The position numbers and the translations under genes were made by a program. DNA of 35,348 bases from a virus: IMG/VR virus record IMGVR_UViG_3300044846_001218, positions 1 through 35,348 of that record; one strand, given 5' to 3'. Positions 5,649-35,348 of this stretch are shown here, in pieces. The notes under the pieces were generated by a model. That model saw nothing but the letters and a program-made list of their open reading frames with translations, was not told the DNA's origin and searched no databases. Within the stretch, counting starts at the first letter, position 1. The number at the start of each line of letters is the position of its first letter.

Positions 5649-6146
5649 ATGGCAGGCGTTAAAGTAACCGATTTGACCACGTTAGGCACGGCAGATGCTA
5701 ACGATATAATGTATATCGTGGACACAACTGCAAACCAGTCCAAGCAAATCCAAGTGCAGAATATCTATGACGGCTTGCCACAGTTGGATAGTGGTACATT
5801 CACGCCTACAATTAGTAATATAACCCCAAGCACGACAGCGATAACTGAACAGAATGGATACTATCAGCGTATAGATAACATTGTATCAATGTCTTTCTTT
5901 TTTGAGTTGCAATTTGACCCTGGTGATAATGATGTAACCTTTGAATTTTCTTTACCAATTGCATCAGATTTTACATCGCAAAAAGATTTAATAGGTGTTG
6001 TTGTTCCTGACACTACAACCGATTGGGTTTTAAGTTATGTGCAAGCAGATGTAAGCTCGAATAATGGCGTTATTCGTTTTCAATCAAGCACGTCAGGCTC
6101 AAATTACGCATATATACGCGCTTATTTTCAATACGAGATTAAATAA
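5649..6146 (+). CDS. Secondary tail fibre / receptor-binding-like protein (165 aa)
   Basis: The N-terminal 38 residues (VTDLTTLGTADANDIMYIVD) form a motif recurrent at the N-termini of Bacteroidota phage fibre proteins, probably an attachment region. The remainder is Thr-, Ser- and aromatic-rich beta sequence ending in YIRAYFQYEIK, consistent with a small trimeric tip. It starts 23 nt after the previous stop, and its stop shares a base with the lysozyme start (TAATG). The role is inferred from sequence style and neighbours. Confidence 0.6.
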   Translation: MAGVKVTDLTTLGTADANDIMYIVDTTANQSKQIQVQNIYDGLPQLDSGTFTPTISNITPSTTAITEQNGYYQRIDNIVSMSFFFELQFDPGDNDVTFEFSLPIASDFTSQKDLIGVVVPDTTTDWVLSYVQADVSSNNGVIRFQSSTSGSNYAYIRAYFQYEIK

Positions 6147-6604
6147 TGCGCTCAACCTCGCTGCTTGGTCTGAATCTGATTAAGAAGTACGAGGGCTTAC
6201 GGCTTAGTTCCTACCTTTGCCCTGCTGGCGTTCCGACAATAGGCTACGGCAGCACTCGCCATCCGAACGGCAAGAAGGTGCTACTGGGAGAGAAACTAAC
6301 AGGCGAAAAGGAAGCAACGCAATTGCTACTCGCTACGCTTTCGCCATATGAGGATGCAGTAAACAAACACCTACCTAACCTTAATCAATGCCAGTTCGAT
6401 GCGTTAGTAGCATTCAGCTACAACGTGGGAACTGGTGCGTTGGTGAAATCCACGCTGCTCAAGAAGGCCAAAGCAAACGCAGCAGACCCAAGCATCTTGG
6501 ATGAGTTCCTGAAGTGGAACAAGGCAGGCGGCAAAGTGCTTAATGGCTTAACCAATCGCCGCCGCGAAGAGGCGAATCTGTATTTCTCACTTTGTAACTT
6601 CTGA
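6146..6604 (+). CDS. Endolysin, GH24 phage lysozyme (152 aa)
   Basis: It cleaves the glycan strands of peptidoglycan for host lysis. The GH24 signature is clear: KKYEGLRL with catalytic Glu16, then CPAGVPTIGYGS with Thr31. Cys25 stands where T4 lysozyme has its catalytic Asp, a variation seen in many GH24 endolysins. Later motifs QFDALVAFSYNVG and LTNRRREEANLY are also typical. Length is normal for a single-domain enzyme. There is no signal or SAR-type N-terminal membrane segment, so it should need a holin, and a holin-like gene follows. Translation is coupled to the fibre gene through a shared TAATG. Confidence 0.95.
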   Translation: MRSTSLLGLNLIKKYEGLRLSSYLCPAGVPTIGYGSTRHPNGKKVLLGEKLTGEKEATQLLLATLSPYEDAVNKHLPNLNQCQFDALVAFSYNVGTGALVKSTLLKKAKANAADPSILDEFLKWNKAGGKVLNGLTNRRREEANLYFSLCNF

Positions 6605-6650: not shown

Positions 6651-6857
6651 ATGAGGAAAAGGGCTACCAAACCAAGGCGAGTTGTGGATGTCGTTGTCAA
6701 GCACTGGCGTGGCACCATCGGCTCGCTGATGATTCTGGTATCCATATTTTTACTAATCTTCAAAGTGATAACAGCCGAGACATTAACCGCTATCATTGCA
6801 GCATTAATCGCTGCTGGGTATATTCCAAAAGCAAAAAGCGATGCAGCAGATTCGTAG
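6651..6857 (+). CDS. Holin-like small membrane protein (68 aa)
   Basis: I chose ATG 6651 over TTG 6612 because it gives a short basic N-terminus (MRKRATKPRR) followed by two hydrophobic segments, about residues 22-38 (GTIGSLMILVSIFLLIF) and 43-56 (LTAIIAALIAAGY). The C-terminal tail is short and charged. Size, membrane content and position directly after the lysozyme match holins that open the inner membrane for the endolysin. The family cannot be named by eye. The 3' end overlaps the next gene by 17 nt. Confidence 0.65.
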   Translation: MRKRATKPRRVVDVVVKHWRGTIGSLMILVSIFLLIFKVITAETLTAIIAALIAAGYIPKAKSDAADS

Positions 6858-7239
6858 GGATACAATAAAGATTGCAAGGCACAACAAGCTCAACATCGAC
6901 ACCATGAGCTGGGAGGCAGCCAATGCAGATACAAGCTTCGCCCAGGCTAACCGCGAAAGCTTCGAGGCCGTCATGGCACAGCCTCGCAAGGAGAAAGTTC
7001 TCACCGCATTCGATACTATTCAGCCATGCGATGTATCTTTGTTGACTGCTCCCACGTACTATACTGCCAAACCTCAGCCTGTAAGGAATACGCAAGAATT
7101 GGAAACGCCTATGGATTACGATATACTTTTAAACGGCATTGTTTTCAGCTTCACTCTGTGGATGTCTGCAAAGTATCTTATGGGGTGCGGTGCTGCCTGG
7201 TCAAATCTTTTGCAGGACTTACGTAAAGAATTGGCCTAA
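6841..7239 (+). CDS. Unknown lysis-region protein (132 aa)
   Basis: No family is recognised. The N-terminal 90 residues are polar and mostly helical. A moderately hydrophobic stretch near residues 95-118 (ILLNGIVFSFTLWMSAKYL) could be one membrane segment, with a short amphipathic tail. It overlaps the holin-like gene and lies in the lysis block, so a lysis accessory such as a spanin or antiholin is possible but not shown. A promoter for the PAS-HisKA gene follows its stop. Confidence 0.5.
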   Translation: MQQIRRDTIKIARHNKLNIDTMSWEAANADTSFAQANRESFEAVMAQPRKEKVLTAFDTIQPCDVSLLTAPTYYTAKPQPVRNTQELETPMDYDILLNGIVFSFTLWMSAKYLMGCGAAWSNLLQDLRKELA

Positions 7240-7256: not shown

Positions 7257-7264
7257 TATCTTTG
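7257..7264 (+). promoter_or_regulatory. -7 box immediately before the PAS-HisKA start (TATCTTTG)
   Basis: TATCTTTG ends only 4 nt before ATG 7269. Transcription would begin at or next to the start codon, giving a leaderless message. No good -33 TTTG is seen. Confidence 0.55.
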
Positions 7265-7268
7265 CGAT

Positions 7269-7835
7269 ATGGCAAGCCTGCACATCCTTGAGTCATCAAT
7301 TGACCTCTTCTATGTGATCACCGATAAGGATGGCAATATCGTCACCTCCAATGATTTATTCAAGGAGTACAGCAGCCACATCAAGCCTACCAACATTCTC
7401 GACATTGCGGCCAATGATTCCGACCGCGATGAGCTGCTTCAGGCAATAAGGAAGTCGCAGAAGAAAACACCCGATCCGATTCGGACCTATGCCAAGACAA
7501 AGCAGAAGATGGCCTCTGAGAGGTACAACATGTGGAATGTTTATTCAATTGTTGACATGCTGCACTTCATCGGAATCCAGCTTGTCGATGTGACTTCCAT
7601 CAGCAACCATGAGCATGAACGCCAGAAGATACTTCTGGAAGAGTTCCGCTTCATGCTATCGCACGAACTGCGCCAGCCATTGACTTCAATCGGGGGCTTG
7701 GTGAAGATGATGATTGAGCACAACAATGCAACGGATCAGGAGCGCGATGATGTGATGAAGATGCTTGCCAGTAGCGTTGACAAGCTTGATGATGTGATTC
7801 GGCTATTAGTTAAGAAAGCAACCAGGCAAATATGA
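7269..7835 (+). CDS. Orphan PAS-HisKA protein: histidine-kinase dimerisation domain without ATPase (188 aa)
   Basis: Residues about 5-112 read as a PAS sensor domain (LFYVITDKDGNIVTSN at 13-28, closing strands VYSIVDM and FIGIQLVDVTSI). Residues 119-185 form a HisKA (DHp) helical hairpin with the H-box FMLSHELRQPLTSIGG; His132 is the predicted phospho-acceptor. The frame stops just after the second DHp helix, so the HATPase_c domain (N, G1 and G2 boxes) is absent, and it is not found in any frame downstream. It therefore cannot phosphorylate itself. It could accept or drain phosphate, form mixed dimers with a host kinase, or titrate a response regulator. Start ATG 7269 is chosen over TTG 7251, which precedes the promoter box. 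Its stop overlaps the next gene (ATGA). There is no membrane segment, so it should be cytoplasmic. Confidence 0.88.
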   Translation: MASLHILESSIDLFYVITDKDGNIVTSNDLFKEYSSHIKPTNILDIAANDSDRDELLQAIRKSQKKTPDPIRTYAKTKQKMASERYNMWNVYSIVDMLHFIGIQLVDVTSISNHEHERQKILLEEFRFMLSHELRQPLTSIGGLVKMMIEHNNATDQERDDVMKMLASSVDKLDDVIRLLVKKATRQI

Positions 7836-8026
7836 GCAACCTACCGGCTACCGACTGCGAATGCGATGAGAGACTTGTGAAGGTGCTGGCAGTTTACATA
7901 GCCGAGAAGGCCATGCCGCTGAAGGTGGCAGCGGATATATTGCTCAATGAACTCAGAGACAAAAGCACCTACATCAAACGTCTTAACGAACTAATCCTAT
8001 GCAGCAAAGCAACATCAGCACACTGA
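7832..8026 (+). CDS. Small helical protein coupled to the PAS-HisKA gene (64 aa)
   Basis: The ATGA overlap with the PAS-HisKA stop implies coupled translation and perhaps a shared role. It has an acidic, Cys-containing N-terminus (ATDCECDERL) and two predicted helices ending in KRLNELILCSK. No family is recognised; it lacks the Asp/Lys pattern of a receiver domain and is too short for an ATPase domain. It overlaps the next gene by 28 nt. Confidence 0.55.
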   Translation: MSNLPATDCECDERLVKVLAVYIAEKAMPLKVAADILLNELRDKSTYIKRLNELILCSKATSAH

Positions 8027-8643
8027 GTCTTTTGGCAATCTGCTTATTCATTTTGCTTCTGCTATTGCGCACATGTGGTGCATTGCGTGAATCCGAAAGC
8101 AATGCCATGTATCTCGATTCACTAAACTCGGAGTACACTGTGCGCATTGCAAGTGACAGCTCGAAGATTTACAGCCAATCCATCCAGCTTGCAGCGGCCG
8201 GCACCAAGCTTCGAGCATTGGAACTGCGAGAGCCTGAGGTGGTGGTGCGGTATCAGACTAAGACGGTGGTGAAGACTGAGCTGCAACTGGGCGAAACGGT
8301 GTACATCGACAGCTTTCCGCACTTGCGCCTGCCGAGGTCATTCAGTCGGGAGGGTAAGTTCCTTCAGATAGGTGGGTCAATAAACCGCTTAGGAAGGCTT
8401 CAAATCGATTCGATTATCATTCCGGTGTCTTATACCGTTGCAATTGGAGATACGATGCGAGGGGGCTTATTTTCGCGTAAGCGTGACAAGGTTGTTCGCC
8501 TTGGTATCGACAACCCATATGTGAGCGTCACAGGAATGCACAACGTGATCGTGGCAGACAAGCCGAAAAAATGGTACCAGACCCAACTTGCAGGGGCTGT
8601 ATTCGGTGGCCTTGTCGGATTCGCAATTTGTCGCGCAAATTAA
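7999..8643 (+). CDS. Membrane-anchored protein with TM segments at both ends (214 aa)
   Basis: A hydrophobic segment at about residues 8-23 (TLSLLAICLFILLLLL) is followed by a long periplasm-sized region with charged helix (about 30-75) and beta-rich sequence (TVVKTELQLGETVYIDSF). A second hydrophobic stretch lies near the C-terminus (AGAVFGGLVGFAIC). This layout resembles a group of Bacteroidota phage proteins annotated only by DUF numbers (possibly DUF6549), named here with low certainty. Being last in the lysis block, it could serve as a spanin, although no lipobox is visible. Its stop ends the block; the early promoter follows. Confidence 0.6.
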   Translation: MQQSNISTLSLLAICLFILLLLLRTCGALRESESNAMYLDSLNSEYTVRIASDSSKIYSQSIQLAAAGTKLRALELREPEVVVRYQTKTVVKTELQLGETVYIDSFPHLRLPRSFSREGKFLQIGGSINRLGRLQIDSIIIPVSYTVAIGDTMRGGLFSRKRDKVVRLGIDNPYVSVTGMHNVIVADKPKKWYQTQLAGAVFGGLVGFAICRAN

Positions 8644-16052: not shown

Positions 16053-16082
16053 TTGTTGCAGCTTGTTGCAGCTTGTTGCAGC
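16053..16082 (+). repeat. Three tandem 10-bp iterons (TTGTTGCAGC)
   Basis: Three exact head-to-tail copies begin two bases after the primase-helicase stop, with a 10-bp period close to one helical turn. The same decamer recurs inverted at 16251-16260 and 16334-16343. They are candidate binding sites for a replication initiator or repressor. Confidence 0.9.
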
Positions 16083-16092
16083 TTTGTAAAAA

Positions 16093-16153
16093 GTAAGTTG
16101 CAACATCTTGCGCCCTACTCTCGTGCAGCCTTCAGCGATTTGTTGCAACTTAC
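16093..16153. repeat. 13-bp inverted repeat (GTAAGTTGCAACA / TGTTGCAACTTAC)
   Basis: Perfect 13-bp arms at 16093-16105 and 16141-16153 are separated by 35 bp. Each arm contains the TTGCAA core of the iterons. It can form a stem-loop or bind a dimeric protein. Confidence 0.88.
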
Positions 16154-16193
16154 AACTTACTTTTCTATTATTAACAACATATATACACACATG

Positions 16194-16217
16194 CACACAC
16201 ACACACACACACACACA
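16194..16217. repeat. (CA)12 microsatellite
   Basis: Twelve uninterrupted CA dinucleotides, preceded by a short ACACAC tract and followed by TATAGTATATA. Such tracts can adopt Z-DNA and are prone to length change. It is the only such tract noticed in the genome. Confidence 0.97.
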
Positions 16218-16345: not shown

Positions 16346-16672
16346 ATGAGTGAGGTAAAAGCACAGGCGAAGGCATTCACAAACCTCTGGAATGCGCGCC
16401 CTGACTTACGTGGAAGAGTTTTCGCCATCAACAACAACAGCGTGAACGGCATCAAGGGAGCAATGAATAAAGCCATGGGAGTTGTGCCTGGTGTTGCAGA
16501 TATGTGCTTCATGAAGCCTGAAGGTAGAACGTGCTGGATCGAATGGAAGACAGACACCGGCAAGCAGTCACCATTGCAAATCAAGTTTCAGCAACTCTGC
16601 ATATCTTTGGGCCATGAGTATCACATCGTGCGAAATGAAGAGGAATTCTTGAAGGTGATAAATTGCACATAA
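16346..16672 (+). CDS. VRR-NUC domain nuclease (108 aa)
   Basis: A stand-alone VRR-NUC (PD-(D/E)XK superfamily) nuclease of typical phage length. Motifs: GVVPGVADMCF with Asp52, CWIEWKTDTG with Glu66 and Lys68 (ExK), then SPLQIKFQQL with Gln78. Such enzymes can act as structure-specific or junction-resolving nucleases. Start ATG 16346 directly follows an iteron copy (16336-16343), so expression is probably controlled by whatever binds there. Its stop codon begins the first junction repeat of the AT-richer island. Confidence 0.9.
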   Translation: MSEVKAQAKAFTNLWNARPDLRGRVFAINNNSVNGIKGAMNKAMGVVPGVADMCFMKPEGRTCWIEWKTDTGKQSPLQIKFQQLCISLGHEYHIVRNEEEFLKVINCT

Positions 16673-19633: not shown

Positions 19634-19763
19634 TGGCGCAGTGATAACGATTGCCACCTTGCTGCTATGTGCAGCGTTCGGCTGGTTCATCATCCTTGCG
19701 GTGCAGTCCTTCATGAAAGAGCATCCAGAGGATGACGATGATCACTTATGGCCTTCAGTTTAA
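19626..19763 (+). CDS. Single-TM microprotein between terminase subunits (45 aa)
   Basis: ATG 19626 overlaps the TerS end by 8 nt and the frame ends at TAA 19763, overlapping TerL by 16 nt. It fills an otherwise empty 114-nt gap. The protein has one clear membrane segment (VITIATLLLCAAFGWFIILA, residues 6-25) and an acidic tail (EHPEDDDDHLW). No family is recognised. The clean overlap geometry and defined TM/acid layout argue for a real gene, but this is not proven. Confidence 0.55.
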   Translation: MINGAVITIATLLLCAAFGWFIILAVQSFMKEHPEDDDDHLWPSV

Positions 19764-21025
19764 CCAAGAGGCAAACCAAAGCATTTAACCAGGCAACTTC
19801 AGGCACTCATCGCGTGGTGGTGTTTGGAGGCGCGATTCGAGGCGGCAAGACTTACTGGCTGCTGCTGACCCTCAGCTATCTCGCACTGGAATATCCGCGC
19901 AGCCGCTGGGTGATTATTCGCCGCAGCCTGCCTGACCTTAAGCGCACAACCTTCCCAAGCTTCAGCGCAATTCTCGATGACGGCATCAACCAGTACGTGC
20001 AGAGTTGGAACAGAGACACGCAAGTGGTTACCTTCATCAATGGCAGCGAGTTGCTGTTCATGGCAGAGAGTTACGATGATGACAAGGACCTCAACCGCTT
20101 CAAAGGGCTTGAGGTGAATGGTGCAGGACTGGATGAGGTGAATGAGTTGCAGGAGCAGACGTTCTACAAGGTGCAGGAGCGCATCGGAAGTTGGAACAAG
20201 GCCGAAGGAAGGCCACCGATTGTCTGCATGGCAACGTGCAACCCGGCGAACAACTGGGTGAAGAGCATAATCTATGAACGCTACAAGGACGGCACATTGC
20301 CTGAGCGTTGGAGCTTCATTCCTTCCAAGATAACTGACAACCCTCACATCCCTGCTGAGTACCTCGAATCTTTGAAGGAGCTGCCACCGGTCCAGTACGC
20401 AAGATTCGTGGAGGGTGATTGGGATGTGATGGATGACGTGGCGAATCCGTTCCTGTATGAGTGGGCTGATGAGAAGCACATCGACGACAGCGTGCAGCTC
20501 AATCGCAATGTGCCGGTGCATGTCTCTGTCGACTTTAACATCAATCCGCTTTGTGCCCTGGTCATTCAGCACGTGGGCAGGGGCGCGGTGGTGGTGGATG
20601 AGATAAAGATTGAGAAGGGCAGCGTGGATGCGTTCTGCGATGCGGTCCTTGCGCTTGGCGTGCCGATGGGCCTCATCAGGATTACTGGTGATGCGATGGG
20701 CAAGGGCGGAACAGTGCAGCAGCGTGACAACTCCAGTGCGTACACGCAAATCAAGCGGCGGCTCGGCATGAGTGACAGCCAGTTTCTCATTCCAGCAAAC
20801 CCGACTCATTACAACAGCAGGATTGATTGCAATGCTGCGCTGCGCAAGTTGGACATTCGCGTGAACTCCAAGCGGTGCAAGGGATTCGTGTTCGATGCGA
20901 AGCAAGTGCAGTGCGATGCGAATGGAGGTATCATAAAGACGAACAGGAAAAATATTGCTGAGCGTGCTGACTTTTTAGATTGTTTTCGTTACTTTGTGAA
21001 CGCAATCCTAAAGCGTTACTTATGA
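19748..21025 (+). CDS. terL: Terminase large subunit (425 aa)
   Basis: The DNA-packaging motor ATPase and nuclease. Walker A is GGAIRGGKT (27-35), Walker B is GAGLDEVNE (about 124-132) and the coupling motif is ATCNPANNW. The nuclease domain keeps its acidic triad: VSVDFNINP (Asp about 262), ITGDAMG (Asp about 315) and DFLDCFRY (Asp about 408 and 411). The length is normal. It cuts concatemers and drives DNA into the procapsid through the portal encoded at 30832. The stop overlaps the next start (TTATGAG). Confidence 0.96.
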   Translation: MAFSLTKRQTKAFNQATSGTHRVVVFGGAIRGGKTYWLLLTLSYLALEYPRSRWVIIRRSLPDLKRTTFPSFSAILDDGINQYVQSWNRDTQVVTFINGSELLFMAESYDDDKDLNRFKGLEVNGAGLDEVNELQEQTFYKVQERIGSWNKAEGRPPIVCMATCNPANNWVKSIIYERYKDGTLPERWSFIPSKITDNPHIPAEYLESLKELPPVQYARFVEGDWDVMDDVANPFLYEWADEKHIDDSVQLNRNVPVHVSVDFNINPLCALVIQHVGRGAVVVDEIKIEKGSVDAFCDAVLALGVPMGLIRITGDAMGKGGTVQQRDNSSAYTQIKRRLGMSDSQFLIPANPTHYNSRIDCNAALRKLDIRVNSKRCKGFVFDAKQVQCDANGGIIKTNRKNIAERADFLDCFRYFVNAILKRYL

Positions 21026-35205: not shown

Positions 35206-35348
35206 ATGTCTATATCTCGCATTCTATCGGAGTGTCCTAATGTGCAAATGTCACTTAGCGAGCTCTTCATCGAAGTTGGTCAGCGTGAGCAACTTCCTTT
35301 TCTTGAGTTCTTACTTTCACCTGAGAACGCAAAACTTATCCGCACTGA
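35206..35348 (+). CDS. Major capsid protein, 5' part (continues at base 1)
   Basis: ATG 35206 begins MSISRILSECPNVQMSLSEL and is open to the window end. Bases 35222-35348 equal 1-127, so the gene continues in frame to 1028. I chose this start because it follows the structured leader; the frame stays open further upstream through the terminator only by chance. The sequence has no Shine-Dalgarno but an A/T-rich stretch before the ATG. Confidence 0.75.
   Translation, partial: MSISRILSECPNVQMSLSELFIEVGQREQLPFLEFLLSPENAKLIRT
35222..35348. repeat. Contig-end overlap, right copy
   Basis: Identical to bases 1-127. It should be counted once when the genome is circularised. Confidence 0.95.

Follow-up and report, generated by a model that had tools for sequence, protein, structure and literature searches.

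The window analysed here is a 35,348-nt stretch of viral DNA, the full length of IMG/VR record IMGVR_UViG_3300044846_001218, and the exact 127-nt direct repeat found at both of its termini (1-127 and 35222-35348) indicates that it is probably a complete phage genome. Genes for terminase, portal, lysozyme and replication can be recognised in it, and the nearest terminase from a cultured phage, that of Flavobacterium phage 11b, is 31% identical. The locus of interest and its neighborhood comprise the following features:

6146..6604, plus strand: endolysin (T4-type lysozyme; PF00959, E 1.8e-38), preceding the PAS-DHp gene in 167 of 167 testable relatives
6651..6857, plus strand: holin-like 68-aa membrane protein (weak match to the PHROG 565 holin, E 0.02), in 207 of 207 relatives
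6841..7239, plus strand: protein of 132 aa that has a hydrophobic, TM-like stretch at its C-terminus and matches no family, in 211 of 211 relatives
7257..7264, plus strand: TATCTTTG, candidate -7 box of the Bacteroidota type, 4 nt before the ATG (compared with 33 window starts and the upstream regions of relatives)
7269..7835, plus strand: PAS-DHp protein, 188 aa, with no CA (HATPase_c) domain (HisKA Pfam match, AlphaFold2 model, relatives, dN/dS)
7299..7589, plus strand: PAS domain, aa ~11-107 (b-b-a-a-a-b-b-b topology in the AlphaFold2 model at high pLDDT; Foldseek; Pfam threshold not reached)
7605..7826, plus strand: DHp helical hairpin, aa 113-186 (AlphaFold2 helices 113-150 and 156-186; PF00512)
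7662..7664, plus strand: His132, predicted phosphoacceptor in the H-box SHELRQPL, kept in every full-length relative
7832..8026, plus strand: 64-aa coupled partner with the motif [DE]ERL..V...Y[IV].E..MP..[VF]A..[IL]L, downstream in 318 of 318 testable relatives
7999..8643, plus strand: 214-aa spanin-like protein, in 185 of 185 testable relatives

The C-terminal half of the PAS-DHp protein is matched by the HisKA model PF00512 (aa 129-178, 32.7 bits against a cut-off of 26.9), which also matches all 24 family representatives scanned (E <= 0.1). Sequence profiles reach the N-terminal half weakly: no Pfam PAS model exceeds its threshold for the window protein, PAS_9 recovers 3 of 24 family members (best E 0.032), and TIGR00229 remains at 13-16 bits, below its cut-off of 22.9. 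By predicted fold, however, this half is a PAS domain. An AlphaFold2 model computed with 46 relatives displays the full PAS topology (strands 13-18, 23-27, 71-78, 84-94 and 97-105; helices 29-34, 43-46 and 50-65) with pLDDT block means of 82-94; after it comes the DHp hairpin of two helices, in which His132 lies on the first helix and the second is its partner, the chain ending two residues past the latter. The best Foldseek matches to this model are LOV/PAS histidine kinases, and isolated solved PAS domains match it with a TM of about 0.74. ThkA (PDB 3a0r), PhoR and the YF1-type LOV kinases have the same PAS-DHp arrangement over aa 6-182 but possess a CA domain; full-length viral histidine kinases (BFVD matches such as A0A6J5L941, Agrobacterium phage Atu_ph07) resemble the PAS and DHp folds, although they are mostly longer and come from other virus groups, the best Foldseek matches being only 13-20% identical. 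The initial annotation had read here a PAS domain and a HisKA-type DHp with the H-box SHELRQPL and His132, in a gene that stops before any HATPase_c, and had suggested structure prediction as a check; the model yields both the PAS fold and the hairpin, no HATPase_c is present in the protein, and the PAS assignment, while correct, is well shown by structure only.

Searches of viral contigs with the window protein and with a divergent family member as queries returned 162 and 324 related stretches, respectively, and two pattern scans widened the range of the family, the second of them confined to PAS residues 74-92, so that its sample is unbiased with respect to the H-box. The search for PAS-HisKA proteins ending at the DHp thereby recovered 332 full-length IMG/VR relatives (175 distinct proteins of 185-189 aa, with identity to the window protein down to 46%), all of them CA-less and ending just past DHp helix 2, mostly with LVKKA[TA]R[QE][IL]; a tblastn search found no homologues in cultured phages. 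His132 is retained in 332 of 332, including the sample drawn with the PAS-only pattern, and both it and Glu133 (H+1) are invariant in the recovered family, as is nearly the whole His helix. Tallied by locus, the H-box reads LSHELRQP in 317, LSHEIRQP in 22, LSHELRHP in two and LSHEVRQP in one. It is missing from a single locus, a copy broken by a frameshift (L194:5051-5353 and following) whose halves are both otherwise well conserved; this frameshift may be a sequencing error. At position H+4 nearly all members have Gln136; two loci have His there, and the divergent member L342, whose H-box is SHELLSP, has Ser. Pairwise dN/dS is about 0.08 for the protein as a whole, with similar values for its two domains, and judged by this ratio both PAS and DHp are under strong purifying selection. 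The shared end point and the low dN/dS agree with the original view that the gene is selected rather than decaying; homologues that are all full-length kinases, which would have spoken against that view, were not encountered, every relative stopping after DHp helix 2.

We then examined the gene neighborhood, identifying the neighbors by iterated profile searches with match positions and lengths checked. Across 215 distinct loci the order is fixed as endolysin, holin-like protein, TM protein, PAS-DHp, a 52-73-aa gene and the spanin-like gene; the product of the last, inspected by eye, appears to have an N-terminal TM segment followed by a coiled-coil-like and a periplasmic-like part. As these loci were chosen through the PAS-DHp gene itself, relatives were also picked by terminase alone, and 28 of 28 such near-complete genomes contain it: the PAS-DHp gene is a core gene of the whole phage lineage. 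Its more divergent carriers have terminases of 75-87% identity, and in three carriers (G311, G319 and G329, which contain L205, L268 and L334) nothing matches the window terminase, suggesting that the cassette module either predates the terminase lineage or passes from one lineage to another. The placement in a lysis block pointed out in the initial annotation is thus retained in all testable relatives, and a role in timing lysis, proposed there from gene position only, may perhaps follow from it.

Two further features accompany the gene. TATCTTTG ends 4 nt upstream of the ATG and is the only box that close to a start among the 33 window starts checked. In relatives, a TAN2-3TTTG box occurs in 68 of 130 distinct upstream regions, as against a background of 2.6%, and lies exactly 4 nt from the start in 57 of those 68. 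Based on this conservation we infer that TATCTTTG, a box of the -7 type typical of Bacteroidota, is a near-leaderless promoter of the PAS-DHp gene; the box itself had been pointed out earlier. The coupled downstream gene, likewise noted earlier (ORF 7832-8026), is found as a 52-73-aa gene in 318 of 318 testable loci (those in which it is lacking end at a contig edge and are not counted), with an ATGA (4-nt) overlap in 277. Its product diverges fast (27-86% identity around [DE]ERL..V...YV.ER.MP..VA..IL), had no family match in any profile library searched and is probably helical; the constancy of the coupling suggests a stoichiometric companion of the PAS-DHp protein. The first 28 nt of the spanin-like gene (7999-8026) lie within the gene for the 64-aa partner, so that three consecutive genes overlap.

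A six-frame search of the window and 35 near-complete relatives (36 genomes) recovered no HATPase_c, including any that a frameshift might have concealed, and no receiver domain above the cut-off; both searches gave matches in control genomes. A single sub-threshold receiver match in one genome was dropped as a candidate phage-encoded partner. Hence two-component chemistry, if any, needs host proteins as both partners, and we consider that the PAS-DHp protein very probably taps the host's own signalling, in keeping with the action on host two-component systems originally envisaged. Two scans of genome contigs found no close cellular relative, their one match being L342, a phage-like 3.7-kb contig with a matching cassette in a Bacteroidota MAG bin. 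Its binning and the -7 box both fit a Bacteroidota host. That the phages recently captured one particular host kinase was considered and rejected, as these scans turned up no close cellular relative and L342 is phage-like.

The best cellular matches in 296 Bacteroidota genomes are much weaker (E values from 2e-11 upward), and 12-13 of the roughly 30 best ones are themselves CA-less, their chains ending within about 25 residues of the DHp (26 in L364). By Pfam these proteins, which include those encoded at chromosomal loci L497-L507 and L380, have a C-terminal HisKA without HATPase_c, preceded by REC-PAS, multi-PAS, Reg_prop/Y_Y_Y, SBP_bac_3 or TPR regions. In several of them the HisKA match falls below the Pfam cut-off, so that standard annotation would hide the CA-less DHp/REC branch of Bacteroidota to which these findings point. 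They share with the phage proteins an SHxxRxP-form H-box, the lack of HATPase_c and a C-terminus within about 30 residues of DHp helix 2, with an end of the ELDxxIxxIVxK type. They are not phage genes and are usually larger, with sensors of the REC-PAS, multi-PAS, Reg_prop, SBP or TPR kind; furthermore, Glu at H+1 is not fixed in them and H+4 is Gly, Arg, Ala or Ser, whereas the phage family has a fixed Glu and Gln. A single-domain receiver is a frequent though not universal neighbor of the CA-less genes: one lies directly beside the gene in L498, L499 (4-nt overlap), L501 and L507, L380 has one in divergent orientation, and there are further cases, whereas the phage gene adjoins the 52-73-aa protein instead. 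Many ordinary PAS kinases also have such receivers next to them, so that this arrangement does not mark out the class. In a DHp tree the phage clade (support 100/99) and the cellular CA-less clade (96/82, including L364) are sisters at 91/64, a moderate value from 87 columns with long branches. A profile of the cellular CA-less DHps gives the window DHp 61.7 bits (phage DHps 56-66), against 32.7 for the generic HisKA model, although this overlaps the best CA-containing kinase (64.8, most others being below 56) and clear CA-less members score 72-111; scores of at least 70 bits occur in about 14 of 148 genomes. A PhoR profile matches aa 15-181 of the window protein (E 4e-10); an origin from PhoR is nevertheless not supported, the closest cellular DHps being CA-less proteins and assorted PAS kinases.

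The residues around His132 bear on what the hairpin might do. In HisKA proteins the kinase reaction, but not the phosphatase reaction, requires the acidic residue following the His, and the reverse holds for Thr or Asn at H+4; in CrdS, N375Q left about 60% of kinase activity and no measurable phosphatase (PMC3510030). A fixed His-Glu pair with Gln at H+4 therefore predicts a phosphoacceptor that is a poor phosphatase, and on these sequence grounds we lean toward a phosphoacceptor function over a phosphatase-type decoy. With slightly less than even confidence, we propose that the PAS-DHp protein is a stand-alone, soluble, sensor-gated phosphoacceptor in a host phosphorelay. The PAS domain would gate a DHp homodimer in which His132 holds the phosphoryl group, and both its source and its destination would be host proteins, most likely host receivers (REC~P to His to REC, in the manner of Spo0B); alternatively, the CA domain of a host kinase might donate the phosphate across a mixed dimer. 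Produced together with the lysis genes and the coupled 52-73-aa partner, and thus presumably late in infection, the protein would siphon away or redirect the flux through one of the host's two-component pathways. Favoring this proposal are a His132 that is never lost, even in samples not chosen by the H-box, the nearly invariant His helix, the strong purifying selection on both domains, the Glu and Gln at H+1 and H+4, the phages' want of both HATPase_c and receiver, the sister relationship and profile score that point toward the cellular CA-less clade, and the receivers adjoining several members of that clade. Set against it are the lack of an adjacent REC gene in the phage, unlike several of the cellular counterparts, the moderate support for the joint clade with its overlapping profile scores, and the SHELLSP of L342. 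Moreover, the pseudokinase RocA can do without its histidine (PMC7028121), which means that conservation of the residue does not prove that the PAS-DHp protein uses it.

The main rival, which we regard as possible though rather doubtful, is a dominant-negative or allosteric adaptor that forms DHp-mediated mixed dimers and alters the output of host PAS histidine kinases without carrying phosphate. A DHp serves for dimerisation and a CA domain would not be needed; precedents are RetS, which blocks GacS (PMC4866733), and RocA, which acts on CovS and still works without its CA domain when overexpressed (PMC7028121), and PIT4 of phage LSL4 acts on FleS/PilS and binds the HK domains of several kinases (PMC10714779). 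Such an adaptor would, however, not require His132 and Glu133, and yet both are kept family-wide. Next comes a phosphatase or regulator decoy, in which a response regulator of the host either loses its phosphate to the DHp or is simply occupied by it. The DHps of EnvZ and NtrB by themselves suffice for phosphatase activity and give a constitutive phosphatase phenotype in vivo; against this, the H+4 Thr or Asn required is replaced by Gln nearly throughout (apart from the His and Ser noted above), the very substitution that abolished phosphatase in CrdS (PMC3510030), and we consider this reading unlikely. FixL-type kinases also have Gln at H+4, so Gln is no absolute bar to phosphatase activity. 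Improbable as well, and placed behind the decoy, is a sensor acting on the phage's own lysis proteins, whose PAS domain would respond to a cue from the dying cell (redox, proton motive force or a ligand) and whose DHp coiled coil would bind the holin-like, TM or spanin-like protein; the invariant cassette placement and the obligate coupled partner fit such a sensor, but it leaves the invariant H-box unexplained, and position alone may reflect late transcription. A decaying fragment or frameshifted kinase gene is so improbable that we set it aside: one of about 330 copies (L194) is frameshift-broken, whereas all other members end at the identical point, dN/dS is about 0.08 and the six-frame search of 36 genomes is empty of HATPase_c.

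For the phosphoacceptor proposal, a close functional parallel is Spo0B of the Bacillus phosphorelay, whose DHp serves as a phosphotransfer intermediate rather than a kinase (PMC11210211). The likeness is one of function, and Spo0B is without a PAS domain. Effects of phages on two-component systems are already known from PIT4, which resembles the role proposed here as a phage protein acting on host two-component systems; it comes from a Pseudomonas phage, where its gene is an early one, binds HK domains and, compared by description, is not presented as a PAS-DHp protein in the text consulted (PMC10714779). Like the proposed protein, RocA and RetS are kinase-like modulators of a true kinase, but they are cellular, membrane-bound and equipped with CA domains. 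Spo0B, for its part, keeps a degenerate CA-like domain.

We further posit, as a speculative and rather unlikely extension, that Bacteroidota harbor a little-noticed branch of CA-less sensor-DHps that trade phosphate with single-domain receivers, and that a whole phage lineage captured this module and made it, together with a partner of its own, a permanent part of the lysis cassette, where it would read the host state and set the end of infection. In the literature searched, which excludes most subscription papers, there is no description of either the phage PAS-DHp family or the CA-less Bacteroidota class, and priority is not thereby established. The occurrence of a two-component part as a core gene under strong selection, in several hundred phage contigs, would imply a dependence of these viruses on interference with host phosphosignalling. 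With neither kinase nor receiver supplied by the phage, the host partner offers a clean target.

Two other observations concern the phage genomes at large. In the window, a perfect 10-nt tandem repeat (TTGTTGCAGC, 3.2 copies) and an AC microsatellite (16.5 copies) occupy 16053-16217, just ahead of an endonuclease-like gene at 16346. The terminase gene of the window (terL, 19748-21022) is intact; among relatives L417, L446, L447, L472, L486 and L492-L496, several have a 39-41-nt insertion inside the TerL Walker A motif, separating GGAIR from GGKT. A frame-0 stop lies directly at or one to two codons past the split in some and at the hairpin in others, and the 41-nt form also shifts the frame. 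Within the insertion a CCCC...GGGG hairpin is conserved, several of its pairs showing compensatory changes, and the CGN codons at the two edges match each other; by analogy, it resembles a translational bypass element of the T4 gene 60 type situated in an essential gene.
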